DNA of 64,000 nt from Bradyrhizobium guangxiense. GTDB lineage: Bacteria; Pseudomonadota; Alphaproteobacteria; Rhizobiales; Xanthobacteraceae. The translations under genes were made by a program, and so were the position numbers. Below, in pieces: positions 3,537-17,173 of the stretch (position 1 is its first letter; every line of letters starts with the position of its first letter). Under the pieces are notes generated by a model. It worked only from the letters and a program-made list of their open reading frames with translations, was not told the DNA's origin and made no database searches. The DNA lies in assembly GCF_004114915.1 (NCBI RefSeq), contig NZ_CP022219.1, positions 1,704,501-1,768,500 on the forward strand. The letters run 5' to 3'.

Positions 3537-4331
3537 CTACTTGCCCTTGCTCGTGAACTTCTTCACGGCAACGCGGAATTCCTCCGTGTTCATCGCCATG
3601 ATGATCTTGTGCTCCTCGGCGTCGAGCTGCTGCTTCACCGGCGTGGTGGCGGCCTGATAGACCAGCTGCTTGGTGCCGGCGATGGCGGCCGGCGGGTTCT
3701 GCGCGAGACGCTCGGCGAGCTTTCGCGTGGCCGCCTTCAATTCCGCGGCGGGCACGATCTTCGCGACCAGGCCCCATTCATAGGCCTGCTGCGCGGTAAA
3801 ATTGTTCTCCGACAGGAAGATCTGCAGCGCCCGGCGGGAGCCGACCGTGCCGACGATGCCGACGGTCGAGCCCCCGTCGGGCGACACGCCGATCTTGGCG
3901 TAGGCCGGCGTGAACTTGGCGTCGTCGGCGGCGATGCAGAGATCGGTGACGAAGGCGAGGCCCATGCCGGCGCCAGCCGCCGAGCCGTGCACGCTCGACA
4001 ACGAGATCTTCGGCATGCGCCGGATGATCTCGATGAAGGCATGATAGTGCTTCAAGAGCTCGCCGACGACCGGCGTCACCGTGCCCGCCTCCGCGGCCGC
4101 CCCGATCGTCTGCAGATCGCCGCCGGCCGAGAATGCGCGGCCTTCGCCTTCGAGGACCACGACGCGGACTGCGTCATCGCCTTCGATCGTGGCCGCGAGC
4201 TGCTCGAGCTTCTGCGCGATGGCGAGGTTGATCGAGTTGAAGGCGGCGGGGCGGTTGAGCGTGATGGTCGCGATCGGGCCGTCGATCCGCAGCAGGGCGG
4301 GATCATCGGGCTGGGAGACGGGAGCTGGCAT
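3537..4331 (-). CDS. enoyl-CoA hydratase/isomerase (crotonase) family protein
   Basis: A 264-residue crotonase-fold protein. The oxyanion-hole motifs are clear (RAFSAGGDL around residue 67 and HGSAAGAGMGLA around residue 117). The segment AKIGVSPDGGST places Asp where hydratases usually carry the second catalytic Glu. That is the pattern of PaaG-like and delta3-delta2 isomerases, so an isomerase is more likely than a classic hydratase. The ATG at 4331 was preferred to the in-frame start at 4394 because MPAPVSQ leads directly into the conserved ITLNRP region and a GGGGA lies a few bases upstream. Its substrate is unknown. Confidence 0.8.
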   Translation of the reverse strand: MPAPVSQPDDPALLRIDGPIATITLNRPAAFNSINLAIAQKLEQLAATIEGDDAVRVVVLEGEGRAFSAGGDLQTIGAAAEAGTVTPVVGELLKHYHAFIEIIRRMPKISLSSVHGSAAGAGMGLAFVTDLCIAADDAKFTPAYAKIGVSPDGGSTVGIVGTVGSRRALQIFLSENNFTAQQAYEWGLVAKIVPAAELKAATRKLAERLAQNPPAAIAGTKQLVYQAATTPVKQQLDAEEHKIIMAMNTEEFRVAVKKFTSKGK

Positions 4332-4521
4332 CTGGAATATCCCCGGCGTGAGGTCGTCAGCAGCGACTAAATCGCAGAAGCGCGGGGGAGACAATCCCCG
4401 CGGTGCACCCTTGCACTGGACGGAACGATAGGCTCAAATGGACGCGCCTTCGCCAAGGGACGGACACGAGCGCCGGCTCCTCGTAAGGTCAGCAACCAAA
4501 ATCAGCGAGAGAGGAGGCGGC

Positions 4522-5780: not shown

Positions 5781-6698
5781 TCAACCCGCGCCGAGCACGG
5801 CCTTAACCTCCGCGGCCGTCGGCATCGACGGCCCGGCACCCATGCGCTGCACGCTGATCGAGGCGGCGGCGTTGGCGAAGGCGAGGGCGGCGCGCAAGGG
5901 CGCCCCGTCGGCGAGTTGCGCGGCGAGCGCGCCGACAAAGCAGTCGCCCGCGCCTGTCGTGTCGATCGCTTTCACCGTGCGCCCCTGCACCGCAATCTCC
6001 TCGCGGCCCGCGAGCGCGAGCACGCCGCGCTTGCCGAGCGTGACGCAGATGGTCTGGTCGTGGCGCGCCTGGAGCTGTCGCGCCACGTCGATGATCTCCG
6101 CGGCCTCGTCACCGTCCGAGACCTCGGCGCCGGCGAGGAAGCCGAGCTCGGTCTCGTTCAGCACGAGGATGTCGACGAGCGCCAGCAGTTCATCGGACAT
6201 CTTTTGCGCCGGCGCCGGGTTGAGCAGCGTCGTGGCTCCGGCGGCACGGCCGCGCCGGAAGAACGCGGCGATGGCCGGCAGCGGAATCTCGAACTGGCTG
6301 ACCGCGACGTCGCCCGCCAGCAGCGGCACGATCTCGACGTCGTCGGCGCCGACCAGCCCGTTCGCCCCGGGAATGACGACGATGGTGTTGTCGGCTTCCG
6401 CCACCGTGATGATGGCGGTGCCGGTGTGTGCCTCGGCCATCTCCTGGACATAGCCGAGATCGATGCCCTGGTCGCCGAGGAACGTCCTCAGCTCGGCCCC
6501 GAACGAATCCGTCCCCAGCCGCCCGATCAGCGTGGTCCGCGCGCCAAGCCGTGACGCCGCCACCGCCTGGTTCGCGCCCTTGCCACCCGGAAAATACAGC
6601 CCCTGCCGACCCGCGACGGTCTCGCCGATGCGTGGATGGCGATCGGCCGTCGCCACCACATCCATGTTGATGCTGCCGGCGACGAAGACGCGCCCCAT
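5781..6698 (-). CDS. ribokinase-like PfkB family carbohydrate kinase
   Basis: A 305-residue PfkB kinase that phosphorylates a sugar or nucleoside with ATP. Signatures: GSINMDVV at the N-terminus, FPGGKGANQAVA (PfkB signature 1) near residue 38 and DTTGAGDCFVGAL (signature 2 with the catalytic Asp) near residue 245. These match ribokinase best. The ATG at 6698 is preferred to 6710 because GAGG sits six bases before it. It is the second gene of a two-kinase operon; 18 bases separate it from the upstream kinase. Confidence 0.85.
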   Translation of the reverse strand: MGRVFVAGSINMDVVATADRHPRIGETVAGRQGLYFPGGKGANQAVAASRLGARTTLIGRLGTDSFGAELRTFLGDQGIDLGYVQEMAEAHTGTAIITVAEADNTIVVIPGANGLVGADDVEIVPLLAGDVAVSQFEIPLPAIAAFFRRGRAAGATTLLNPAPAQKMSDELLALVDILVLNETELGFLAGAEVSDGDEAAEIIDVARQLQARHDQTICVTLGKRGVLALAGREEIAVQGRTVKAIDTTGAGDCFVGALAAQLADGAPLRAALAFANAAASISVQRMGAGPSMPTAAEVKAVLGAG

Positions 6699-6716
6699 AG
6701 GAAACCTCAAGCGAGT

Positions 6717-7610
6717 CTACACCCTGACCTCGAACTCGTGCCTGACCTTGGCGATGTCGACCAGCGTCGGCAATCCGGCCTCGTTGCCGAGACGCTGGAT
6801 CTTGAAGGTGGAGGCGGCGCGGGCGAAGTCGAAATGCTCCCGCCAGCTTTTGCCGGGATGGGCGAGGTAGGAATAGACATAGGCGCCGTGAAAGACGTCG
6901 CCGGCGCCGTTGGTGTCGATCACGCGCTCGCGCGGGATCGGCATCGCCGGCATCACCTGGACCGTTCCCGTCTCGTCGTACCACAACAGGCCCTTCTCGC
7001 CCATGGTGACGCCGCCGATCTTGCAGCCGCGGCTCTTGAGGTAGTCGAGCATTTTCTCCGGCGTCAGATCCATCTGCTCGCACAAGCGCTCGGCGACGAT
7101 AGCGACGTCGATATATTCGAGCAGCTCATGGGTGTTGGTGCGCAGGCCGCCGCCGTCGAGCGAGGTCAGGATGCCGGCCTCGCGGCACACCTTGGCGTAG
7201 TGGATCGCCGCATCCGGCTGGTGGCCGTCGACATGCAGCGCGCGGCAGCCGCCGAGATTGAGCATCGGGAAGGGATGGATGTGCTCGTCGTCCCGGCAGC
7301 GGACGATGGCGCGCTTGCCGTCCTTGGGCATGATGAAGGAGAGCGAGGACTGGTTGACCTTCCGCCCGTGCAGCGAGATCGCGTATTTCGCGCACATGTC
7401 CTGGAACATGCGTCCCAGCCAGTCATTGGCCGCGGTGGCGATGAGATCCGGCACGATGCCGAGCTTGGCGCAGCAGAACGCCGCCGTCACCGCGTTGCCG
7501 CCGAACGAAACGGCGTAGTCCGAGGCGACGTGTTTCTCGTCGCCGGTCGGCACGTGGTCGGTGATGAAGACGACGTCGATATAGGTCTGTCCGATGAAGA
7601 GAGCCTGCAT
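6717..7610 (-). CDS. PfkB family sugar kinase
   Basis: A 297-residue PfkB-fold kinase, more divergent than its neighbour. It keeps the substrate-side SFGGNAVTAA near residue 37 and the catalytic DTNGAGDVFHGAY near residue 240, so it should be active. The substrate is unknown. The ATG at 7610 begins MQALFIGQTYIDVVF, matching the first beta strand; the longer frame from 7649 adds a poorly conserved, charged extension. It is the first gene of a minus-strand pair with the ribokinase-like gene and is divergent from the VOC gene at 7834. Confidence 0.8.
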   Translation of the reverse strand: MQALFIGQTYIDVVFITDHVPTGDEKHVASDYAVSFGGNAVTAAFCCAKLGIVPDLIATAANDWLGRMFQDMCAKYAISLHGRKVNQSSLSFIMPKDGKRAIVRCRDDEHIHPFPMLNLGGCRALHVDGHQPDAAIHYAKVCREAGILTSLDGGGLRTNTHELLEYIDVAIVAERLCEQMDLTPEKMLDYLKSRGCKIGGVTMGEKGLLWYDETGTVQVMPAMPIPRERVIDTNGAGDVFHGAYVYSYLAHPGKSWREHFDFARAASTFKIQRLGNEAGLPTLVDIAKVRHEFEVRV

Positions 7611-7833
7611 TGCTTGTCCGTCATGCGCTTTGTGGTCCCGGCCGGGCACTTACTGTAGCACCGGTTCCGCTTCGGCGGGACGCTGAAATTATTCGCAAAA
7701 CTGCCGCCCGAAGCGCTTGAGGTCAGCATGGCCAGGGAATACGACCATCACCGGGCGATGCCAAGCCCGGACAAACGCCGTGTTTCGGCCCATGGGTTCC
7801 AGGGCAATGACAGGCGCGATCAATGGGGGACAG

Positions 7834-8682
7834 ATGATCACCGGCCTCGATCACGTCGTCGTTCTGGTAAGAGATATCGGGGCGGCCAAGGCGGCCTACC
7901 AGACGCTGCTCGCCCGCGCACCCGCCTGGCAAAATTCGGGCGAGGGCGCCGACCGCGTGCTGTTCACCCTCGCGAACATGACGATCGAGCTGATGGCGCC
8001 GAGCGGCTTCAGCGTCACTGCGGATCGCATGCGGGCCCTGCTCGATGACCAGGAGGGCATGCTCGCCAGCCTGTGCTTTCGTGTCGCAGACGTGAGCAGG
8101 ATGCGCCGGCGGCTGGAGCGGGTGGCCTTGAGCCCCGACCCGGTCGCCGAGGTCGAAAGCAGCGATACGGATACGGGCAACGTGCTGCACTGGAAGCGCA
8201 CGCGAGCCGCCACGGAACTCACGCGTGGCGTGCGCATGTTCTTCCTCGAGCTCGCCGACGAGCGCCCGCTCTCGGTCGCCACCGACATCGCGCCGATCGA
8301 CGCGCTCGACCACGTCGTGGTCACCACCGAGGATTCCGAGCGCGCCGCCGCGCTCTACGGCGCGCGGCTCGGCCTCGATTTGGCGCTCGACCGCTCGCAC
8401 CAGGATTGGGGCCAGCTGTTGTTCTTCCGCTGCGGTGACCTCATCGTCGAGGTGGTGCGCCGGCCGGTCGCCGGCGGCGATCCAATGCATGACCGGCTCT
8501 GGGGCCTGAGCTGGCGGGTCGCCGACATCGATGCCACGCGCGCCCGCCTGATCGCTGCCGGCCTCGACGTCACCGAGGTCCGCAATGGCCGCAAGCCGGG
8601 CACGCGGATCATGACGGTGCGGAGCGGCACCTGCGGTGTCCAGACGGTGTTGCTGGAGCGCTCGCCCAAGCCGGTGGAGTGA
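7834..8682 (+). CDS. VOC (glyoxalase-like) family protein
   Basis: A 282-residue protein with two vicinal-oxygen-chelate modules. Each opens with a similar motif: GLDHVVVLVRDIGAA at the N-terminus and ALDHVVVTTEDSERAA around residue 155. The second module also has LIVEVVRR and DPMHDRLWGLSWRVAD, as in metal-binding VOC enzymes. Such proteins act as glyoxalases, dioxygenases or isomerases, and the substrate cannot be told here. The ATG at 7834, preceded by GGGGGA, was chosen; ATG 7807 is possible. Repeat copy A follows the gene. Confidence 0.7.
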   Translation: MITGLDHVVVLVRDIGAAKAAYQTLLARAPAWQNSGEGADRVLFTLANMTIELMAPSGFSVTADRMRALLDDQEGMLASLCFRVADVSRMRRRLERVALSPDPVAEVESSDTDTGNVLHWKRTRAATELTRGVRMFFLELADERPLSVATDIAPIDALDHVVVTTEDSERAAALYGARLGLDLALDRSHQDWGQLLFFRCGDLIVEVVRRPVAGGDPMHDRLWGLSWRVADIDATRARLIAAGLDVTEVRNGRKPGTRIMTVRSGTCGVQTVLLERSPKPVE

Positions 8683-8686
8683 TTCT

Positions 8687-8784
8687 GTCATTCCGGGCGT
8701 TGCGAAGCGACGAGCCCGGAATCCATTCATCTGCGCCCCGATGGATTCCGGGCTCGCACCCAAGAGGGCGCGCCCCGGAATGAC
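8687..8784. repeat. CATTCCGGG palindromic intergenic repeat, copy A
   Basis: Starts with GTCATTCCGGG and ends with CCCGGAATGAC, so the ends are inverted. Internal segments (GGATTCCGGGCTCG) add further partial palindromes. It fills the gap between the VOC gene and the TetR gene. Related copies are at 9585, 11610, 51201 and 59196. Confidence 0.75.
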
Positions 8785-8862
8785 GGAGCTAACATCCTAG
8801 CGTTCTCAAAGGCCCCCGCGCGTGTTACACGCCATATCCAGACTACCCAGCGAGCACCCGGT

Positions 8863-9570
8863 TTGGCGAAGGCAAAGCGAACTCTGAAATGGCAGCGCGA
8901 TCCCGAGGGGATGCGGCTGCGCATTCTCGAAGCTGCCAAGCAGGAGTTTTCCGCCCATGGCCTCGCCGGCGCGCGCGTCGATCGCATTGCGGCCAAGGCC
9001 GGCGCCAACAAGCGCATGCTGTATTACCACGTCGGCAACAAGGACCAGCTCTATCTCGCGGTGCTCGAAGGCGCCTATGACAAGATCCGCAGCGAGGAGC
9101 GGGGGCTCGATCTCGAACATCTCGATCCGCCCGAGGCGATCAGGCGCCTGATCGAGTTCACCTGGAATTACTTCCTGCGCAATCCGGAATTCCTGTCGCT
9201 GCTCCAGACCGAGAACCTCGCGCGCGCGAAGCACCTGAAGAAATCGACAAAGGTCAAGTCGATGCACTCGCCTTTCGTCGAGATGATCCGCGCCGTGGTG
9301 CGGCGCGGCGTCGAGTCCGGCGATTTCCAGGTCGCCGTCGATCCGGTGCAGCTTTACATCTCGATCGCGGCACTCAGCTTCTTCTACCTCTCGAACTCGG
9401 CAACACTGAGCGTGATCTTCGGCCGCGATTTGCTGGACAAGAAGGCCAAGGACGAGCGGCTGGCGCACATGGTCGGCCTCGTGCTGGCGGCATTGACGGG
9501 GCAATCGGTCGCGCTGTTCGAGATTGCGAAGGCGCCGAAGTCGCGCACCGCGGTGGCGCAGACGGTGTAG
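8863..9570 (+). CDS. TetR/AcrR family transcriptional regulator (TTG start)
   Basis: A 235-residue TetR-type repressor. The N-terminal HTH is complete (RILEAAKQEFSAHGLAGARVDRIAAKAGANKRMLYYHVGNKDQLY, residues about 19-65); the C-terminal ligand domain resembles the TetR_C group of RutR-like proteins. No in-frame ATG precedes the HTH and the frame opens with TTG at 8863 (MAKAKRTLKW), so this is an uncommon start codon. It lies upstream of, and in the same direction as, the ABC importer and catabolic genes, and probably controls them. No clear operator was found. Confidence 0.8.
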   Translation: MAKAKRTLKWQRDPEGMRLRILEAAKQEFSAHGLAGARVDRIAAKAGANKRMLYYHVGNKDQLYLAVLEGAYDKIRSEERGLDLEHLDPPEAIRRLIEFTWNYFLRNPEFLSLLQTENLARAKHLKKSTKVKSMHSPFVEMIRAVVRRGVESGDFQVAVDPVQLYISIAALSFFYLSNSATLSVIFGRDLLDKKAKDERLAHMVGLVLAALTGQSVALFEIAKAPKSRTAVAQTV

Positions 9571-9584
9571 CGCTCCATTCTCTG

Positions 9585-9624
9585 CTGTCATTCCGGGTTC
9601 GATGCTTCGCATCGCCCCGGAATG
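9585..9624. repeat. CATTCCGGG palindromic intergenic repeat, copy B (short form)
   Basis: A 40-base element, GTCATTCCGGGTTCGATG followed by CTTCG and CATCGCCCCGGAATGAC. It can fold into one long hairpin. It lies immediately after the TetR stop and could act as its transcript end. It is the minimal version of the longer copies A, C, D and E. Confidence 0.75.
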
Positions 9625-9739
9625 ACGACGTTGGTGTACCGGAACCCCCCGCACAAAACGTCACAGGGAAAGCTCTGGACAGTATTTATCCAACGGGTTA
9701 ATTTCTCCCCATAACGAAGAAGACTGCCGGGAGTGAAAA

Positions 9740-10549
9740 TTGGCCGAGCCGAAGCCACAAAGTGCCATCTCCAGGATGCTGAATGCGGCCTGGGTTCGGC
9801 CGTTCTTGTTCCTGGTCTTCATCGTCGTCGCTTGGGATCTGGCGATCCGCCTGTTCAAGATCCCCGCCTACCAGATCCCGTCGCCGCTGGATGTCGTCGC
9901 CGTGCTGCGGACCGAATGGCCGGAATTGCTGCGCCAGTCCTGGCCGACCACCTATGCGACCGTTTGCGGCTTCCTGCTGTCGGCGCTGTTCGGCATTCCG
10001 GTCGCGATGCTGATTGCGGGCTCGAAGACGGTGGAGAGCTACGTCTATCCGCTGCTGGTGTTCTCGCAATCCGTGCCGAAGATCGCGATCGCGCCGCTGT
10101 TCGTGGTCTGGTTCGGCTTCGGTATCGTTCCGAAGGTGATCTCGGCGTTCCTGCTCGGCTTCTTCCCGGTGGTGGTCTCCGCGGTGCAGGGCTTCAAATC
10201 GGTCGACCCGGATATGGTCGATCTCGCCCGCGCCATGCAAGGCAGCCGCCTGCAGGTGTTCCGCGCCGTAAACCTGCCGCATGCGCTGCCGGCGATCTTC
10301 TCGGGCCTCAAAGTGTCGGTGACGCTCGCCGTGGTCGGCGCCGTCGTCGGCGAGTTCGTCGGCTCCAATTCCGGCATCGGCTATGTCATGCAGCGCTCGA
10401 TCGGCACCTTCGACCTGCCGACGATGTTCGCCGCGCTGGTGATCCTGGCGCTGCTCGGCGTGGTCCTGTTCTGGATCGTCGACCGGATCGAGAAGCTGAT
10501 CATTCCCTGGCATGTCAGCCAGCGCGAGGACGTGATTCTCGCATCTTAA
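9740..10549 (+). CDS. ABC transporter permease, TauC/SsuC (NMT1-linked) type
   Basis: A 269-residue inner-membrane permease of the nitrate/sulfonate/taurine/hydroxymethylpyrimidine import group. About six hydrophobic helices are visible and the EAA-type loop is present (LARAMQGSRLQVFRAVNLPHALP, around residue 165-187), which docks the ATPase. The start is TTG at 9740, with GGGAG seven bases upstream. It is the first gene of the importer, followed by the binding protein and then the ATPase. Confidence 0.88.
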   Translation: MAEPKPQSAISRMLNAAWVRPFLFLVFIVVAWDLAIRLFKIPAYQIPSPLDVVAVLRTEWPELLRQSWPTTYATVCGFLLSALFGIPVAMLIAGSKTVESYVYPLLVFSQSVPKIAIAPLFVVWFGFGIVPKVISAFLLGFFPVVVSAVQGFKSVDPDMVDLARAMQGSRLQVFRAVNLPHALPAIFSGLKVSVTLAVVGAVVGEFVGSNSGIGYVMQRSIGTFDLPTMFAALVILALLGVVLFWIVDRIEKLIIPWHVSQREDVILAS

Positions 10550-10602
10550 ACTCAAGCAACGGCCGTTAACGGCCGAAACATAACGACGCAGGGAGAGTAA
10601 CG

Positions 10603-11595
10603 ATGAAGCGGTGGATTGGGGTTGCATCCGTGGCACTGATGGCGTTCGCAACCGTGCCGGCGCAGGCAGCCGACAAGGTCGTGCTGATGCTGAACTGGTA
10701 CGTCTATGGCGAGCACGCGCCGTTCTACTACGGCAAGGCCAAGGGCATTTATGCCGCTGAGGGCATCGACCTCGAGATTCAGGAAGGCCGCGGCTCGGCT
10801 GCGACCACGCAGGCCGTCGCTGCCAAGACCGCGGACTTCGGCTATGTCGATGTTCCCACCATGATGCGCGCCGCGATCAAGGGCGCGCCCGTGGTCGCGA
10901 CCGGCGTCCTGCTGCAGACCTCACCGATGTCCGCCATGGGCTTCGTCGACAAGAACATTAGGAAGCCCGAGGACATCAAGGGCAAGACCGTGGCGATCAC
11001 ACCGGCGGATTCGATGACGCAGATCTGGCCGTTGTTCCTCAAGAAGACCGGCTTGAAGGAGAGCGACTTCAAGACCGTCGCCGGCGACGGCCAGACCAAG
11101 CTCAACGCCGTCATCAACGGCCAGGCCGATCTGCTGCTCGGTTACGTCATGGACCAGTCGATGAAGATCAAGGACGCCACCGGCAAGGACGTCTATCCGA
11201 TCAAGTTCGCCGACTACGGCATCAACATGGTCTCGTCAGGCATCATCGCCAATACCGACTATGTGAAGGCCAATGTCGATCTCGTCCGCCGCTTCATGTC
11301 GGCGACCACGAAGGCGGTCGAGGCAGCCGAGAAGGAGCCGAAGGCCGCCGCGCAGTCGATCCTCGATGCCAACCCGAAGGGCGGCAAGATCGACACGCTG
11401 ACGCAGGGCTTTGAGCTGACCATTCCGCTGTATCGGACCGCGGAGACCAAGAGCAAGCGGCCATTTCAGGTCACCGACCAGAACATGACCGAGACCGTCA
11501 ATCTGCTGGTCGAATATGGCGGGGTCGACGCCAAGGCCAAGGAGAACCCGAAGGCCTTCTACACCAACGATTACCTGCCGAAGAGCGGCTCGTGA
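10603..11595 (+). CDS. ABC transporter substrate-binding protein, NMT1/THI5-like
   Basis: A 330-residue periplasmic binding protein with a clean signal peptide (MKRWIGVASVALMAFA, cleavage near AQAA|DK at about residue 22-24). NMT1-family features follow: VVLMLNWYVYGEHAPFYYGKAKGIYAAEGID, then KGKTVAITPADS. The family binds small organic molecules such as pyrimidine precursors, taurine or aromatics, so the ligand is open. GGGAG lies about nine bases before the ATG. The linked catabolic enzymes suggest a sugar-like or polyol ligand. Confidence 0.88.
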   Translation: MKRWIGVASVALMAFATVPAQAADKVVLMLNWYVYGEHAPFYYGKAKGIYAAEGIDLEIQEGRGSAATTQAVAAKTADFGYVDVPTMMRAAIKGAPVVATGVLLQTSPMSAMGFVDKNIRKPEDIKGKTVAITPADSMTQIWPLFLKKTGLKESDFKTVAGDGQTKLNAVINGQADLLLGYVMDQSMKIKDATGKDVYPIKFADYGINMVSSGIIANTDYVKANVDLVRRFMSATTKAVEAAEKEPKAAAQSILDANPKGGKIDTLTQGFELTIPLYRTAETKSKRPFQVTDQNMTETVNLLVEYGGVDAKAKENPKAFYTNDYLPKSGS

Positions 11596-11609
11596 TTGCA
11601 ACATACACT

Positions 11610-11687
11610 GTCATTCCGGGGCGCCCGAAGGGCGAACCCGGAATCTCGAGATTCCGGGTCTGGTCCTTCGGACCATCCCGGAATGAC
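11610..11687. repeat. CATTCCGGG palindromic intergenic repeat, copy C
   Basis: Runs from GTCATTCCGGGG to CCCGGAATGAC. It contains two inner inverted parts, around CGCCCGAAGGGCG and around CTCGAG (GAATCTCGAGATTCCGGG). It separates the binding-protein gene from the ATPase gene of the same importer, a position where a hairpin can stabilise the upstream mRNA and reduce downstream expression. Confidence 0.75.
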
Positions 11688-11716
11688 GGTTCGTATCGTC
11701 GAGCGGACTTGATCGA

Positions 11717-12559
11717 ATGAAAGCAGCAGAAGCGATATCTCCCTTGCAGCCTGCCGGGCATCTGCGCCTGGTGTCAGACCGGGCCGGCGATGCGTCGGGC
11801 ATCAAGCTGTCGGGCGTGTCGAAGACCTACCGGACGCGCGACGGCGACGTGCCGTCGCTGCGGCCGCTCGACTTCCACATCAATGACGGCGAGTTCTTCG
11901 TCGTGGTCGGCCCTTCCGGCTGCGGCAAGTCCACGCTGCTCAAGCTGATCTCCGGTCTGCTGCCGCCAACCACGGGCGAGATCCTGGTCGAGGGCGAGAA
12001 GGTGATGACGCCGCACGGCAATGTCGGCATCGTCTTCCAGAACGCGTTGCTCCTGCCGTGGCGCAACATCCTGGGCAACGTGATGCTGCCGATCGACATG
12101 AAGCGGCTGCCGCGGCAGGAATATCTCGACCGCGCCAAGTCGCTGCTGAAGCTGGTCGGGCTCGAAGGCTTCGAGAAGAAGCTGCCCTGGCAGCTTTCCG
12201 GCGGCATGCAGCAGCGTGCCTCGATCTGCCGCGCGCTGGTGCATGATCCCAGGATCATGCTGATGGACGAGCCGTTCGGCGCGCTCGATGCGCTGACGCG
12301 CGAGCGCATGAATGTCGAGTTGATGCGGATCCAGCGCGAGACCAGGAAGACGGTGCTGCTGATCACGCATTCGATTCCGGAAGCCGTGTTCCTCGCCGAC
12401 CGCGTGCTGGTCATGACCGAGCGCCCCGGCGCGGTCGCCGCGATCTACGACGTGCCGCTGCCTCGCCCGCGCTCGCTCGACGTGATGGCCGACCCAGTCT
12501 TCACCGAAATCGTGCAACGCATCCGCAAGCATTTCTTCTCGCAAGGTGCATTGGATTAA
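11717..12559 (+). CDS. ABC transporter ATP-binding protein, TauB/SsuB type
   Basis: A 280-residue ATPase for the upstream permease. Walker A GPSGCGKST (around residue 64-72), Q-loop VFQNALLLPW, signature LSGGMQQRASICRAL, Walker B IMLMDEPFGALD, and H-loop LLITHSIPEAV are all intact. A non-conserved stretch of about 28 residues precedes the domain. The enolase-superfamily gene starts four bases after the stop, or overlaps it if GTG 12546 is used. Confidence 0.9.
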   Translation: MKAAEAISPLQPAGHLRLVSDRAGDASGIKLSGVSKTYRTRDGDVPSLRPLDFHINDGEFFVVVGPSGCGKSTLLKLISGLLPPTTGEILVEGEKVMTPHGNVGIVFQNALLLPWRNILGNVMLPIDMKRLPRQEYLDRAKSLLKLVGLEGFEKKLPWQLSGGMQQRASICRALVHDPRIMLMDEPFGALDALTRERMNVELMRIQRETRKTVLLITHSIPEAVFLADRVLVMTERPGAVAAIYDVPLPRPRSLDVMADPVFTEIVQRIRKHFFSQGALD

Positions 12560-12563
12560 GACC

Positions 12564-13961
12564 ATGGCGCCCCGCCTGAAGCTGCGAGACATCGCCTTCT
12601 TCGAGCGTCCCGTGCAGTTCGCGCGACCGTTCCGCTTTGGCGCGATCACGATCAATGCGACGCCGCAGCTGTTCTTGCGGGTCGAGATCGAGGTCGAGGG
12701 CAGGGGCGTTGCGATCGGCGCCAGCGCCGAGCTGCTGGTGCCGAAATGGTTCGACAAGCGGCCGGAGCTGTCGCCGGCGCAGACGATCGACGGCCTGCGA
12801 CGATCGCTCGAGATTGCGCGTGGGCTTTATCTGGCACGCACCGGATATCAGACCGCGTTCGATCTGCAGGCTTCGTGCATCGGTGCCCAGATCGCGACCT
12901 GTGCGAAGAAGAACATTCCGCCGCTTGCCGCGGCTTACGGCCCGGCGGAAATCGACAAGGCGATCCTCGATGCGCTGCTCCGCGCCGTCGAGACCAGCTT
13001 CTTCGACGGAATGGCTGCCAACATCGCCGGCATCGATGCGCGGCTTTGTCCTGACTTGAGCGAGAACGACATCAGGACGTTCCTCGCCGGCCGGGTGCCG
13101 CTGCAGCGTGTTGCCATCAGGCACACGGTCGGCCTTGATGGTGTCGTTGAAGGCGAGGGCGGCGTCGCCGATCCGCGCGAGAACGCCGGGGCGCGGTACT
13201 TCAAGCTCAAGCTGTCGGGTGATCCTGTCGCCGATGCAGCGCGGCTGGTGCGGATCGGCAAGGAACTCGATACGCTCGGGCGCGACTATCGGGTGACGCT
13301 CGATGCCAACGAGCAATATGCGGATCTCGCCGCTTTGCAGGCGCTGATGGACCGGCTCGATCATGACGCCGCGCTGCGTCCGATCGCCACGCGCCTGCTC
13401 TATGTCGAACAACCGATGCCGCGCGACGTCACGCGGCAGTCGGCGCTCGGCGCGCTGGCCGCGCGCGACTTCATCATCGACGAGGCCGATGATTCCTACG
13501 ATGCCTTTGCGGCGGCGCGGGCGCTCGGCTATCGCGGCATTTCCTCGAAATCCTGCAAGGGGCTCTACAAGTCCATCGTCAACGCCACACGCGTGGCGAA
13601 ATGGAGCGCGGAAGGCGGGCGGTTCTTCATCACCGGCGAGGACCTCACCTGCCAGGCGGGTCTTGCCGTGCAGCAGGATCTTGCGCTCGGCGCCTTCATC
13701 GGCGTCACCCATGCCGAACGCAACGGCCATCACTATGTCGACGGTTTTGGCGACGCGCCCTCCGCGGAAGCGCAGGCCTTCGCGGCCGCGCATCCCGATC
13801 TCTATGCCGATGCCGGGCAGGGCATCCGGCTCTCCATTCACGACGGCGACCTCCTGACGGGATCGCTCAACACAGTGGGCTTTGCGACGTCGGTCCATCC
13901 GGACTGGTCGGCGCTTCGCCCGCTCGAACAGCTAAATTCACTCTGGGAGCAATCGGCATGA
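12564..13961 (+). CDS. enolase superfamily (mandelate racemase/muconate lactonizing-like) enzyme
   Basis: A 465-residue protein with the barrel signatures of the mandelate racemase/MLE group: a Kx K pair (K214/K216 in FKLKLSGD), metal-ligand candidates in TLDANEQ (D247, N249), YVEQPMP (E282) and IIDEAD (D306/E307), and lysines in SSKSCKGLYKS (K329, K332). Members abstract a proton alpha to a carboxylate and then dehydrate, racemise or cycloisomerise. It is longer than the usual 360-400 residues. GTG at 12546 is an alternative start. It ends with an ATGA overlap into the Gfo/Idh/MocA gene, so the two are probably translated together. Confidence 0.7.
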   Translation: MAPRLKLRDIAFFERPVQFARPFRFGAITINATPQLFLRVEIEVEGRGVAIGASAELLVPKWFDKRPELSPAQTIDGLRRSLEIARGLYLARTGYQTAFDLQASCIGAQIATCAKKNIPPLAAAYGPAEIDKAILDALLRAVETSFFDGMAANIAGIDARLCPDLSENDIRTFLAGRVPLQRVAIRHTVGLDGVVEGEGGVADPRENAGARYFKLKLSGDPVADAARLVRIGKELDTLGRDYRVTLDANEQYADLAALQALMDRLDHDAALRPIATRLLYVEQPMPRDVTRQSALGALAARDFIIDEADDSYDAFAAARALGYRGISSKSCKGLYKSIVNATRVAKWSAEGGRFFITGEDLTCQAGLAVQQDLALGAFIGVTHAERNGHHYVDGFGDAPSAEAQAFAAAHPDLYADAGQGIRLSIHDGDLLTGSLNTVGFATSVHPDWSALRPLEQLNSLWEQSA

Positions 13962-15109
13962 CCACCCAACGTCTCGGTCTCATCATGAACGGCGTCACCG
14001 GCCGCATGGGGCTCAATCAGCATCTGATTCGCTCGATCGTCGCGATCCGCGACCAGGGCGGCGTCCGCCTGAAGAACGGCGACTGCGTCATGCCCGATCC
14101 GATCCTGGTCGGCCGCAGCGCCGAGAAGGTCGAGGCGCTTGCCAAGCGCTACAACATCACGCGGTGGACCACCGACCTCGACGCGGCGCTCGCTGACAAG
14201 AACGACACCATGTTCTTCGACGCCGCGACCACACAGGCGCGTCCCGGTCTTCTGACCCAGGCCATCAACGCCGGCAAGCATGTCTATTGCGAGAAGCCGA
14301 TCGCGACCAATTTCGAGGACGCCGTCGAGGTCGTGAAGCTCGCCAATGCCAAGGGCGTCAAGCACGGCACAGTGCAGGACAAGCTGTTCCTGCCCGGGTT
14401 GAAGAAGATCGCCTTCCTGCGCGATTCCGGCTTCTTCGGCCGCATCCTCTCGGTCCGCGGCGAGTTCGGCTATTGGGTGTTCGAGGGCGGCTGGCAGGAG
14501 GCGCAGCGGCCGTCCTGGAACTACCGCGACGAGGACGGCGGCGGCATCATCCTCGACATGGTCTGCCACTGGCGCTACGTGCTCGACAACCTCTTCGGCA
14601 ATGTCCAGAGCGTGGTCTGCATCGGCAACACCGATATCCCCGAACGGTTTGACGAACAGGGCAGGAAGTACAAGGCGACCGCCGACGATTCCGCCTACGC
14701 GACCTTCCAGCTCGAAGGCGGCATCATCGCCCATATCAACATGTCCTGGGTGACGCGCGTCTATCGCGACGATCTCGTCACCTTCCAGGTTGACGGCACG
14801 CTCGGCTCGGCGGTCGCGGGTCTCTCCGACTGCATGATCCAGGCACGGCAAGCCACCCCGAGGCCTGTGTGGAATCCCGACGAGAAGCGGTTGCACGATT
14901 TCTACGGCGACTGGCAGAAGCTGCCCGACAACGTTACCTATGACAACGGCTTCAAGGAGCAGTGGGAGATGTTCATCCGCCACGTCTACGAGGATGCGCC
15001 CTACAAGTTCACACTGCTCGAAGGTGCCAAGGGCGTGCAGCTCGCTGAATGCGCGCTGAAGAGCTGGAAGGAGCGGCGCTGGATCGACGTCGCCCCGATC
15101 AAGGTCTGA
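13958..15109 (+). CDS. Gfo/Idh/MocA family NAD(P)-dependent oxidoreductase
   Basis: A 383-residue dehydrogenase of the glucose-fructose oxidoreductase/inositol dehydrogenase family. A Rossmann start (LIMNGVTGRMGLNQH) and the family EKP motif (HVYCEKPIATN, around residue 109-119) are visible; Lys of EKP is the usual catalytic residue. The second domain includes GGGIILDMVCHWRYVLDNLFG, where D and H fit the substrate site. The ATG overlaps the previous stop (ATGA); the longer frame from 13601 is a shadow of the upstream gene. It likely oxidises a sugar or cyclitol hydroxyl to a keto group as an early step. Confidence 0.85.
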   Translation: MTTQRLGLIMNGVTGRMGLNQHLIRSIVAIRDQGGVRLKNGDCVMPDPILVGRSAEKVEALAKRYNITRWTTDLDAALADKNDTMFFDAATTQARPGLLTQAINAGKHVYCEKPIATNFEDAVEVVKLANAKGVKHGTVQDKLFLPGLKKIAFLRDSGFFGRILSVRGEFGYWVFEGGWQEAQRPSWNYRDEDGGGIILDMVCHWRYVLDNLFGNVQSVVCIGNTDIPERFDEQGRKYKATADDSAYATFQLEGGIIAHINMSWVTRVYRDDLVTFQVDGTLGSAVAGLSDCMIQARQATPRPVWNPDEKRLHDFYGDWQKLPDNVTYDNGFKEQWEMFIRHVYEDAPYKFTLLEGAKGVQLAECALKSWKERRWIDVAPIKV

Positions 15110-15119
15110 GGAGGGGCGC

Positions 15120-16310
15120 ATGAACAAGCCCGTGCAAACGATGTCGTCACTGTCGCTGAAGCTGCCGAAGGCCGATCGCTCGATCGAGACCTATCGGCTC
15201 GCGGCCTCGCGCACGTTTCCCGCAAAGCTCGAGGGGCCGCTGAACCGCATCGCCTTCTCGGCCGTGCACACCGTGGCCGATCCCTTCGCCGACAACGATC
15301 CCTGGCTGTCGGTTGCCGTCGACTGGGACAAGACCATCGCCTTCCGCGAGCATGTCTGGGATCTCGGTCTCGGCGTTGCCGAAGCGATGGACACTGCGCA
15401 GCGCGGCATGGGCCTGGACTGGCCGACCTCGCTGGAGCTGATCACGCGGTCGGTCGCCGCAGCGAAGCGGCGCAACGCGCTGGTGTTTTCGGGCGCCGGC
15501 ACCGATCATCTCGCGGTCGAGGACGCCAGGAGCCTCGACGACGTGATCCGTGCCTATGAGGAGCAGGTTTCGGCGGTCGAGAAGGTCGGCGGCCGCATCA
15601 TCCTGATGGCGTCGCGCGCGCTGGCAAGGCTCGGCCGCAATGCCGACGACTACGCGAAGGTCTACAATCACGTGCTGTCGCAGGTTCGCGAGCCCGTCAT
15701 CATCCACTGGCTCGGCGACATGTTCGATCCCGCGCTGGCCGGCTATTGGGGCACGAAAGATCTCGACAAGGCGATGGACACGGCTGTCGCCATCATCAAC
15801 GGCAATGCCGCCAAGGTCGACGGCGTGAAGGTCTCGCTGCTCGACAAGCAGCGCGAGATCGACATGCGCCGTCGCCTCGACAAGCGCATCAAGATGTACA
15901 CCGGCGACGACTTCAACTACGCGGAGCTGATCGCCGGCGACAGCGAAGGCTTCTCGCATGCGCTGCTCGGCATCTTCGATGCGATCGCGCCGGCGGCGTC
16001 CTACGCGCTGTCGCGGCTTGCGGCCGGCGACGAGGCCGGCTTTCACGACGTGCTCGGGCCGACGGTGCCGCTGTCGCGGCACATCTTCAAGGCGCCGACG
16101 CGGTTCTACAAGACCGGCGTCGTGTTCATGGCCTATCTCAATGGCCACCAGGATCATTTCACCATGGTCGGCGGACAGGAGAGCACGCGCTCCACGCTGC
16201 ATCTGGCCGAACTGTTCCGGCTCGCCGACAAGGCCGGCCTGCTCGCCAATCCTGAACTCGCGACGCAGCGGATGAAGACCGTGCTCGCCACCCACGGTAT
16301 CGAATCCTGA
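15120..16310 (+). CDS. DUF993 family protein (dihydrodipicolinate synthase-like TIM barrel)
   Basis: A 396-residue protein that I recognise as DUF993, a family related to the class I aldolase/DHDPS barrels but without an established reaction. GAGTDHLAV, GGRIILMASRALA and EPVIIHWLGDMFDP are the recognisable blocks. Lysines that could form a Schiff base occur (for example in VDGVKVSLLDK) but I cannot assign the active one. It starts ten bases after the oxidoreductase stop behind GAGGGG and shares one base with the next start, so it belongs firmly to this operon. An aldolase or lyase role on the keto-sugar is plausible but inferred. Confidence 0.75.
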   Translation: MNKPVQTMSSLSLKLPKADRSIETYRLAASRTFPAKLEGPLNRIAFSAVHTVADPFADNDPWLSVAVDWDKTIAFREHVWDLGLGVAEAMDTAQRGMGLDWPTSLELITRSVAAAKRRNALVFSGAGTDHLAVEDARSLDDVIRAYEEQVSAVEKVGGRIILMASRALARLGRNADDYAKVYNHVLSQVREPVIIHWLGDMFDPALAGYWGTKDLDKAMDTAVAIINGNAAKVDGVKVSLLDKQREIDMRRRLDKRIKMYTGDDFNYAELIAGDSEGFSHALLGIFDAIAPAASYALSRLAAGDEAGFHDVLGPTVPLSRHIFKAPTRFYKTGVVFMAYLNGHQDHFTMVGGQESTRSTLHLAELFRLADKAGLLANPELATQRMKTVLATHGIES

Positions 16311-17173
16311 TGCGTGACTTTTCGTCCGACCATCGCTGGCTGTCGCTGAACACGGCAACCGTCCGCAAGCAGGGTGATCTCGTCGAGATCATCGAGGCCT
16401 GCGCGAAGCACGGCATCCGCGCCATCGATCCTTGGCGCGACCAGGTTGCCGGCGTCGGTCTCGACCGCGCCGTGCGTGCAGTGCGCGACGCCGGCCTCGA
16501 TCTGTCGGGTTATTGCCGCGGCGGCATGTTCACCTCAGACGCCTCGCGCCGTGGCGAGGTTCGCGACGACAACCGCCGCTGTGTGGACGAGGCCAAGGCG
16601 CTGGGCGCGCCCTGCATCGTCCTCGTCGTCGGCGGCCTGCCGCAATATTCGCGGCCGGGCAGCGAGGCCTCAAAGGATCTTGTAGCCGCGCGCGGGCAGG
16701 TCGAAGAAGCCCTTGCCGACATGCTCGATTATGCCAGGCAGGCCAAGCTCCCGCTGGCGATCGAGCCGCTGCATCCGGCTTACGCGGCCGACCGTGCCTG
16801 CGTGAACACGACGAAGCAGGCGCTCGACATCTGCGACCGGCTCGACCCTGATCGTAGCGGCATGCTCGGCGTCGCGCTCGATGTCTATCACATCTGGTGG
16901 GATCCGGAGCTGATGGGCCAGATCGCGCGCGCTGGCCAGGATCGCCTGCTGGCCTTCCACGTCTGCGACTGGCTGGGGCCGACAAGAGACATCCTCAACG
17001 ACCGCGGCATGATGGGCGATGGCGTCATCGACATCAAATCGGTGCGTGCGGCCGTCGAGGCGCAGGGCTTTGCCGGCTATTCCGAGATCGAGATCTTCTC
17101 CAACGACTGGTGGGGCAAACCGATGGACGAGGTGCTGCGCACCTGCATCGCGCGCCATCAGACGGTGGTGTAG
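16310..17173 (+). CDS. sugar phosphate isomerase/epimerase-like TIM-barrel protein
   Basis: A 287-residue protein of the xylose isomerase-like / AP endonuclease 2 superfamily. Metal-site candidates are IEPLHP (Glu about residue 148), ALDVYHIWWDP (Asp about 185, His about 188), HVCDW (His about 217) and SEIEIFSNDWW (Glu about 259). These fit the usual E-D-H-E set. Members isomerise or epimerise keto sugars; some act as lyases. Its ATG overlaps the DUF993 stop by one base (TGATG). It is the last gene of the cluster and is convergent with the LTXXQ protein gene. Confidence 0.8.
   Translation: MRDFSSDHRWLSLNTATVRKQGDLVEIIEACAKHGIRAIDPWRDQVAGVGLDRAVRAVRDAGLDLSGYCRGGMFTSDASRRGEVRDDNRRCVDEAKALGAPCIVLVVGGLPQYSRPGSEASKDLVAARGQVEEALADMLDYARQAKLPLAIEPLHPAYAADRACVNTTKQALDICDRLDPDRSGMLGVALDVYHIWWDPELMGQIARAGQDRLLAFHVCDWLGPTRDILNDRGMMGDGVIDIKSVRAAVEAQGFAGYSEIEIFSNDWWGKPMDEVLRTCIARHQTVV

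Follow-up and report, generated by a model that had tools for sequence, protein, structure and literature searches.

In the inositol (IolG, IolE/IolI) and levoglucosan (levoglucosan dehydrogenase) pathways, a dehydrogenase of the Gfo/Idh/MocA family is laid out together with a xylose-isomerase-like protein. The catalytic residues of the Gfo/Idh/MocA enzymes are an EKP motif and an Asp/His pair, and the xylose-isomerase-like (AP_endonuc_2) proteins hold a metal in a Glu-Asp-His-Glu site. Two other superfamilies are of interest here: the DHDPS superfamily, which includes dehydratases and decarboxylating dehydratases (KdgD) and in whose DHDPS family a catalytic tyrosine and the GTTGE carboxylate loop are functional features, and the enolase superfamily, whose chemistry requires a carboxylate and in whose muconate-lactonizing-enzyme subgroup the catalytic and metal-binding residues have assigned roles. 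Here, we describe an operon of Bradyrhizobium guangxiense in which enzymes of these kinds are combined around a protein of the DUF993 family (positions 8863 to 17173 of a 64,000-nucleotide stretch of DNA, hereafter the window). It is a real and widely shared catabolic operon, and we favour, with modest confidence, the view that it is dedicated to a carboxylate-bearing polyhydroxy compound, within an acidic-substrate, dehydrogenase-and-lyase frame of which we infer the substrate class, the order of the steps and the reactions. What is established is that the genes are there, are inherited together and keep their catalytic-type residues, and that a candidate control site is conserved with them. 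No description of the pathway or of the DUF993 reaction was found in the literature searched, and no paper naming DUF993 was retrieved.

Eight genes lie on a single strand, and Pfam and NCBIfam scans of the window proteins agree with the families and junctions reported in the first-pass annotation: ENO and GFO overlap by ATGA, a gap of 10 bases separates GFO from DUF993, and DUF993 and SPI overlap by one base. The features are the following:

8863..9570, + strand: TetR-family regulator (TetR_C_29), with Pfam TetR_N and TetR_C_29 domains
9686..9701, + strand: candidate operator TTATCCAACGGGTTAA, an imperfect dyad in a conserved block, 38 nt 5' of the permease start as called
9740..10549, + strand: ABC importer permease, SsuC/TauC-like (Pfam BPD_transp_1; below every NCBIfam cut-off)
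10603..11595, + strand: NMT1/THI5-type solute-binding protein (Pfam NMT1, 153.9 bits)
11717..12559, + strand: ABC importer ATPase (Pfam ABC_tran)
12564..13961 (the open reading frame may begin at 12546), + strand: ENO, enolase-superfamily protein with a muconate-lactonizing-type active site (profile and structure comparison)
13958..15109, + strand: GFO, Gfo/Idh/MocA dehydrogenase (three Pfam domains)
15120..16310, + strand: DUF993, candidate Schiff-base lyase of probable DHDPS fold (PF06187, 631.7 bits)
16310..17173, + strand: SPI, xylose-isomerase-like TIM barrel (Pfam AP_endonuc_2, 129.4 bits)

For ENO, the start at 12564 is the likelier one, since many homologues among the 120 matches listed are 465 aa long.

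The operon is strongly conserved within its genus. Among 80 Bradyrhizobium loci collected, 66 had enough flank to be assessed (limits, 60% identity and 70% coverage), and the order TetR-permease-binding protein-ATPase-ENO-GFO-DUF993-SPI is complete in 63 of them; the exceptions are L069, without SPI, L094, without the ATPase, and L098, with TetR, GFO, DUF993 and SPI only. The last is from Bradyrhizobium manausense, where the importer and ENO were not found at the limits used. DUF993 itself is present in 56 of the 60 Bradyrhizobium genomes sampled. A chance origin is excluded by this shared order and by the score of DUF993 against its own Pfam family, PF06187 (cut-off, 24 bits).

Outside the genus the picture is more varied. 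DUF993 was found in 36/398 genomes of the phylum and 17/190 of the class (the genome studied here being counted), in none of 14 control genomes, and also on actinobacterial plasmids; in one protein search, all of the at least 8000 candidates scored were DUF993 relatives. Forty-one non-genus genomes had a DUF993 match and 40 loci were examined, most of them with some 9 kb of flank at either end, while in the remaining genome, G560, GFO-DUF993-SPI occur in a short locus; 26 plasmid loci were hand-picked from 147 records with a DUF993 match. A GFO homologue (>50% identity) lies beside DUF993, on the same strand and within 373 nt, in 19 of the 40 genome loci, always preceding DUF993 and always accompanied by SPI (19/19); of the other 21, three carry SPI but not GFO and 18 lack both. 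GFO occurs in 13/26 plasmid loci, and a TetR homologue in 18/40 genome loci. ENO is found in eight genome and five plasmid loci, all 13 of which have GFO; of the 19 GFO-bearing genome loci, 11 lack it.

In a 64-row DUF993 tree the gene context tracks lineage, with 6 label changes where shuffling gives 23.5 on average (near copies favour such clustering), and neither context forms one clade. Furthermore, in a set of 16 genomes, DUF993, GFO and SPI distances are mutually correlated (rank 0.53, 0.59 and 0.71, with 3, 0 and 0 of 2000 permutations as high), better than they agree with those of rpoB (0.25, 0.17 and 0.25; 137, 249 and 129 of 2000 permutations), and therefore the three genes tend to travel together. 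The outcome that would have refuted the first-pass annotation, a lack of co-inheritance among these genes, was looked for in this comparison of distances and was not found.

A candidate control site is conserved with the genes. The intergenic DNA 5' of the permease has diverged across the genus except for the block containing TTATCCAACGGGTTAA, which at up to 2 mismatches occurs only once in the 8.2-Mb genome (three times for a reversed control pattern). With no more than 1 mismatch allowed, 52 of the 56 DUF993-bearing Bradyrhizobium genomes have it within the 9 kb upstream of DUF993 and on the strand of that gene, and in 50 of these 52 the distance is 5.3-5.9 kb. The natural reading, as far as sequence can tell, is that this dyad is a candidate operator to which TetR would bind. 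Beyond the genus, a more general dyad near TTAACC-N4-GGTTAA, chosen after the non-genus matches had been seen, turns up in 16/32 GFO-bearing loci versus 3/34 others (shuffled, 2/32 and 7/34) when as many as 2 mismatches are allowed, and in 4/32 versus 0/34 (shuffled, 1 and 0) when the limit is 1 mismatch. In ten genomes picked for having a cluster site, the exact RTAACCNNNNGGTTAY occurs in 18 places, 14 of them within the cluster, and its reversed control in 4. In L187 one dyad stands before GFO and another before the NMT1 binding protein, and in L162 and L177 the ATPase-GFO run and the binding protein are each preceded by a dyad.

In the 60 Bradyrhizobium genomes, 24 more operator-like sites are located away from DUF993 or on another contig. 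Six of these genomes (L245-L250, around position 8000) carry TTATCCAACCGGTTAA directly 5' of an ABC binding-protein gene with CUT1-type permeases, the binding protein being SBP_bac_8 in the one scanned; whether these loci share the regulator is unsure, because DUF993 has no match in G591, which is among these six.

A second DHDPS-type protein, of about 350 aa and matching PF00701 weakly (here DHDPS2), is near GFO-DUF993-SPI in 7 of the 40 non-genus loci, where a homologue of the window ATPase is always present (7/7) and an epimerase-like SDR and a GNAT protein occur in 4/7. Bradyrhizobium has a separate locus of this kind, L224 (G000:C1:2851500-2870500, around 2.86 Mb; 8144-14469), with a TetR 49% identical to that of the window, an NMT1 importer, the epimerase-like SDR, the GNAT protein and DHDPS2. 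It has a dyad of its own, TCAACCAGTTGGTTGA, at 12701, and TCAACCNNNNGGTTGA occurs at three places in the genome, L224 included. DHDPS2 is related to DHDPS (97% probability), and its comparison with DUF993 detected no kinship beyond this shared tie.

The enzymes of the operon retain the residues expected for catalysis. Profile and structure comparison place ENO in the enolase superfamily, with the capping domain of that fold, although its match to Pfam MR_MLE_C is weak (23.2 bits, under the cut-off of 29.4) and no NCBIfam family matched; the KxK motif, three acidic metal ligands and the lysine after strand 6 are invariant in 78 sequences, and such a two-lysine active site would suit epimerisation as well as dehydration. 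GFO carries NAD-binding and C-terminal Gfo/Idh/MocA domains, and its EKP (112-114), D200 and H204 are invariant in 19 sequences. Its closest solved relative, PDB 3OQB (875 bits), is named only oxidoreductase, and a literature search for it found no paper. In SPI, E152, D191, E259 and E261 are invariant across 21 sequences, in which H217 is almost invariant; the closest solved relatives, PDB 3JU2 and 3QC0, are named sugar isomerase with no function given, and the equivalogs hydroxypyruvate isomerase (20.3 bits against a cut-off of 353) and IolO (24.4 against 300) were not reached.

For DUF993, whose resemblance to Schiff-base aldolases had been suggested, the lysine stands and the rest of the signature does not. 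Alignment by hhalign with ten DHDPS-family proteins covers 241 columns (84% probability; E 7e-6 for one comparison) and brings K237, invariant in 36 sequences, onto the Schiff-base lysine; the DHDPS tyrosine position is occupied by H196, likewise invariant in the 36, and in the window protein DTAQR (D91-R95) stands at the position of GTTGE. DUF993 may therefore work as a Schiff-base lyase even though two defining DHDPS features fail. The only solved relative above noise in a profile search of the PDB is 4DNH, entered as an uncharacterized protein, whose single literature match is a lizard-gut paper (PMC13209948).

What precedes DUF993 is also informative. In the S. meliloti pSymA-kind loci this place is taken by an SDR that belongs to PRK12745 (351 bits; cut-off, 250) and in Paraburkholderia caribensis (L129, 8119-8943) by a shikimate-dehydrogenase-like gene (PF08501), annotated as ThiF adenylyltransferase and below every NCBIfam cut-off. 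Since unrelated dehydrogenases, GFO among them, occupy one slot, this suggests that DUF993 acts on a ketone made by the preceding enzyme; a reductase acting after DUF993 would also fit the slot.

On these grounds, the following scheme can be proposed. TetR would control an operon for a sugar acid or a hydroxylated ring acid, and the NMT1-type ABC system would import this carboxylate-bearing polyhydroxy compound. ENO would then shift the proton on the carbon alpha to the carboxylate. The likeliest outcome of this step is that one diastereomer is epimerised into the form that the pathway uses, dehydration being the alternative. GFO would oxidise a hydroxyl to a ketone, and SPI would interconvert keto isomers. 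On the ketone from GFO, or on the isomer made by SPI, the DUF993 lysine would form a Schiff base, and a C-C bond would be broken by retro-aldol cleavage or decarboxylation; that the cleavage is a retro-aldol one is plausible but falls somewhat short of an even bet. More tentatively still, DUF993 could be the key Schiff-base lyase, with His in place of the DHDPS Tyr, of an undescribed and widespread route for an acidic polyhydroxy compound that uses unrelated dehydrogenases in different bacteria, with a TetR operator in the GFO lineage and, in several alphaproteobacteria, one regulon with DHDPS2, likewise lysine-bearing and without an assigned reaction, and an NMT1 importer (L224 being separate in Bradyrhizobium).

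Several observations weigh against this reading. The tie of DUF993 to DHDPS is moderate at the probability given above: the PDB profile search with DUF993 did not find DHDPS chains, a single-sequence search found them weakly (E 0.33-0.52), and the predicted DUF993 model is poor (pLDDT 55). About half of the non-genus DUF993 loci are a different context, 21/40 lacking GFO and 18/40 both GFO and SPI, and therefore DUF993 can work without them; elsewhere in this GFO-less lineage it is preceded by a Dabb protein or a divergent LacI gene, not by a dehydrogenase. Glycerate kinase, a possible exit step, is found in none of the 19 GFO-bearing genome loci and in 5/13 GFO-bearing plasmid loci. Neutral sugars, too, would be suitable cargo for the CUT1 importers found around the core and for those of the CUT1 and CUT2 types in the other DUF993 lineage. 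To the late choice of the general dyad must be added that TTATCCAACGGGTTAA, sought with as many as 3 mismatches, shows no enrichment beyond Bradyrhizobium (4/32 GFO-bearing loci, 3/34 others, 5/67 shuffled). Finally, SMc04130, SMc04131, SMc04134 and SMc04136, numbers from the S. meliloti cluster treated below, are absent from the main text of a proteomics study (PMC12542648).

The GFO-less context has a character of its own. In its 21 genome loci, CoA-transferase (11), crotonase (11), aldehyde dehydrogenase (10), SDR (9), GMC oxidoreductase (8) and glycerate kinase (6) are found, and three of them (L161, L170 and L180) have none of these six; annotated examples are on plasmids of Paracoccus, Rhizobium, S. 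meliloti, Rhodococcus and Roseateles. CoA-transferase is missing from all 19 GFO-bearing genome loci within the stretches examined, and queries with acyl-CoA dehydrogenase, CaiB or crotonase match a few of these weakly (28-36%). The GFO plasmid loci of Paracoccus yeei and Qingshengfaniella have a glycerate kinase homologue, best matched by NCBIfam glycerate 2-kinase, under its cut-off. In two loci (L135, 6547-6858; L138, 6153-6464), both of the CoA-linked context, a small Dabb-domain protein occupies the position that glycerate kinase has in S. meliloti.

The substrate class is where the alternatives diverge. The first-pass annotation proposed a sugar or cyclitol operon; a single co-inherited catabolic cluster, with a candidate control site, the dehydrogenase beside a lysine-bearing protein of probable DHDPS fold (DUF993) and the metal site of SPI, is upheld, and the neutral substrate is weakened by the importers and by ENO. 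A neutral sugar or cyclitol would be imported, converted by GFO to a keto sugar, subjected to elimination or isomerisation by SPI and cleaved by the aldolase action of DUF993, with ENO acting only once a sugar acid exists. We regard this as rather unlikely. The nearest named solved relatives of GFO are scyllo-inositol/L-glucose dehydrogenase and 1,5-anhydrofructose reductase (50-56 bits), SPI has a weak match to IolI (29 bits), the other DUF993 lineage frequently has sugar importers of the CUT1 or CUT2 type, and in four loci (L133, L176, L184 and L188) ENO stands after DUF993, not before GFO, so that an early ENO step is not fixed. However, GFO falls far under the inositol 2-dehydrogenase IolG (70 against 355 bits) and levoglucosan dehydrogenase (52.9 against 650 bits) cut-offs, enolase-superfamily chemistry calls for a carboxylate, and the same core is surrounded by NMT1-type (the window; Chelatococcus) and tripartite tricarboxylate importers as well as by CUT1 (L133). 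Among the 40 genome loci, homologues of the window permease are found in 10, of its ATPase in 12, TctA in 2 and the L133-type CUT1 binding protein in 5. The nearest chains to the L133 binding protein are 4R6K, YesO, 4OVJ and 2UVH; uronate-containing saccharides are the ligands of YesO and of the 2UVH protein. This exchange of importers around one core, together with ENO's need for a carboxylate, makes an acidic polyhydroxy compound likelier than a neutral sugar or cyclitol. An NMT1-type protein for a sugar-like ligand, earlier called unusual, becomes less odd if the ligand is an acid, and elsewhere tripartite tricarboxylate and CUT1 importers replace it; the window protein matches its solved relatives, which include both THI5 and a formyl-aminopyrimidine-binding protein, with 27-68 bits.

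The reaction of DUF993 could also differ from an aldol cleavage. It might decarboxylate or dehydrate a beta-keto acid supplied by GFO or the SDR, with SPI isomerising the resulting ketose, an explanation that overlaps the one we prefer and that we hold unlikely as a separate account. The range of the DHDPS superfamily, with its dehydratases and decarboxylating dehydratases, speaks for it, as do the His that replaces the tyrosine in 36/36 sequences and DTAQR for GTTGE in the window. Beta-keto chemistry would also suit the gene content of the S. meliloti pSymA locus, namely a crotonase, an SDR from the 3-ketoacyl-ACP-reductase family and a CoA-transferase similar to those for 3-oxoacids; against this alternative, glycerate 2-kinase homologues near DUF993 (6/40 genome and 11/26 plasmid loci) suit a C3 cleavage fragment. 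Finally, the sugar look could come from family names, with DUF993 working on a non-sugar scaffold such as a ring acid that resembles quinate or derives from aromatics. P. caribensis, where a shikimate-dehydrogenase-like gene fills the dehydrogenase slot, would suit it, as would the NMT1 and tripartite tricarboxylate importers and a second SPI in Nitratireductor with a weak match to QuiC (3-dehydroshikimate dehydratase), but that match (25.8 bits against a cut-off of 1200) is below the one to psicose 3-epimerase (57.3 bits), and other DUF993 loci have CUT1/CUT2 importers and glycerate kinase, so we consider it improbable.

The S. meliloti locus L133 offers a link with published data, which count in favour of the proposed scheme. 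PDB 3JU2, deposited as SMc04130, differs from the L133 SPI in 2 of 274 aligned residues, and because of this near-identity and the gene order L133 is taken as the SMc0413x cluster, the other SMc numbers being inferred from gene order. The record (CP090106.1, 3.72 Mb) is labelled S. meliloti pSymB and, with an SPI that matches SMc04130, is probably a mislabelled chromosome. In S. meliloti proteomics (PMC12542648, mSystems 2025), SMc04132, SMc04133, SMc04135, SMc04138 and SMc04139 belong to module 6 of co-varying proteins (Table 2), which also contains many other genes; they were not detected in low phosphate and, in TY, were lower in phbC phaR than in phbC (log2 -1.69, -3.65, -1.23, -1.31 and -1.07, respectively). 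SMc04134, which by its number should be the TetR gene of the cluster, is handled as a transcription factor, with no family stated, in the accessible part of a network paper (PMC11387232).

Next to the window operon, the minus strand has a crotonase (3537-4394) and two PfkB-type kinases (5781-6710 and 6717-7649), and the plus strand a two-domain VOC protein (7717-8682). Palindromic repeats GTCATTCCGGG...CCCGGAATGAC flank the TetR gene (8684-8787 and 9587-9626) and look like dispersed repeats.

An inducible catabolic operon is a known kind of system, and the pairing of a Gfo/Idh/MocA dehydrogenase with a xylose-isomerase-like protein is shared with the inositol and levoglucosan pathways; in contrast to these, the window operon has DUF993 and ENO in addition and a different importer, and the family cut-offs are far from reached. 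The nearest solved relatives of GFO, DUF993 and SPI (3OQB, 4DNH and 3JU2/3QC0) are structural-genomics-type entries; structures thus exist for relatives of three of the enzymes, yet their entries name no function. Given the candidate operator, the binding protein and the possibility of knock-outs in ordinary soil bacteria, finding the substrate becomes a short experimental task, in which the conserved candidate control site should help. As for the single enzymes, ENO shares 10-19% identity with the muconate-lactonizing-enzyme subgroup among the 50 matches listed and is about 100 residues longer. DUF993, in turn, is like the DHDPS/N-acetylneuraminate lyase superfamily (PF00701) in the lysine at the Schiff-base position and in the 241-column profile alignment, but differs from it in having His196 for Tyr and DTAQR for GTTGE, in forming a separate Pfam family and in being about 100 residues longer.

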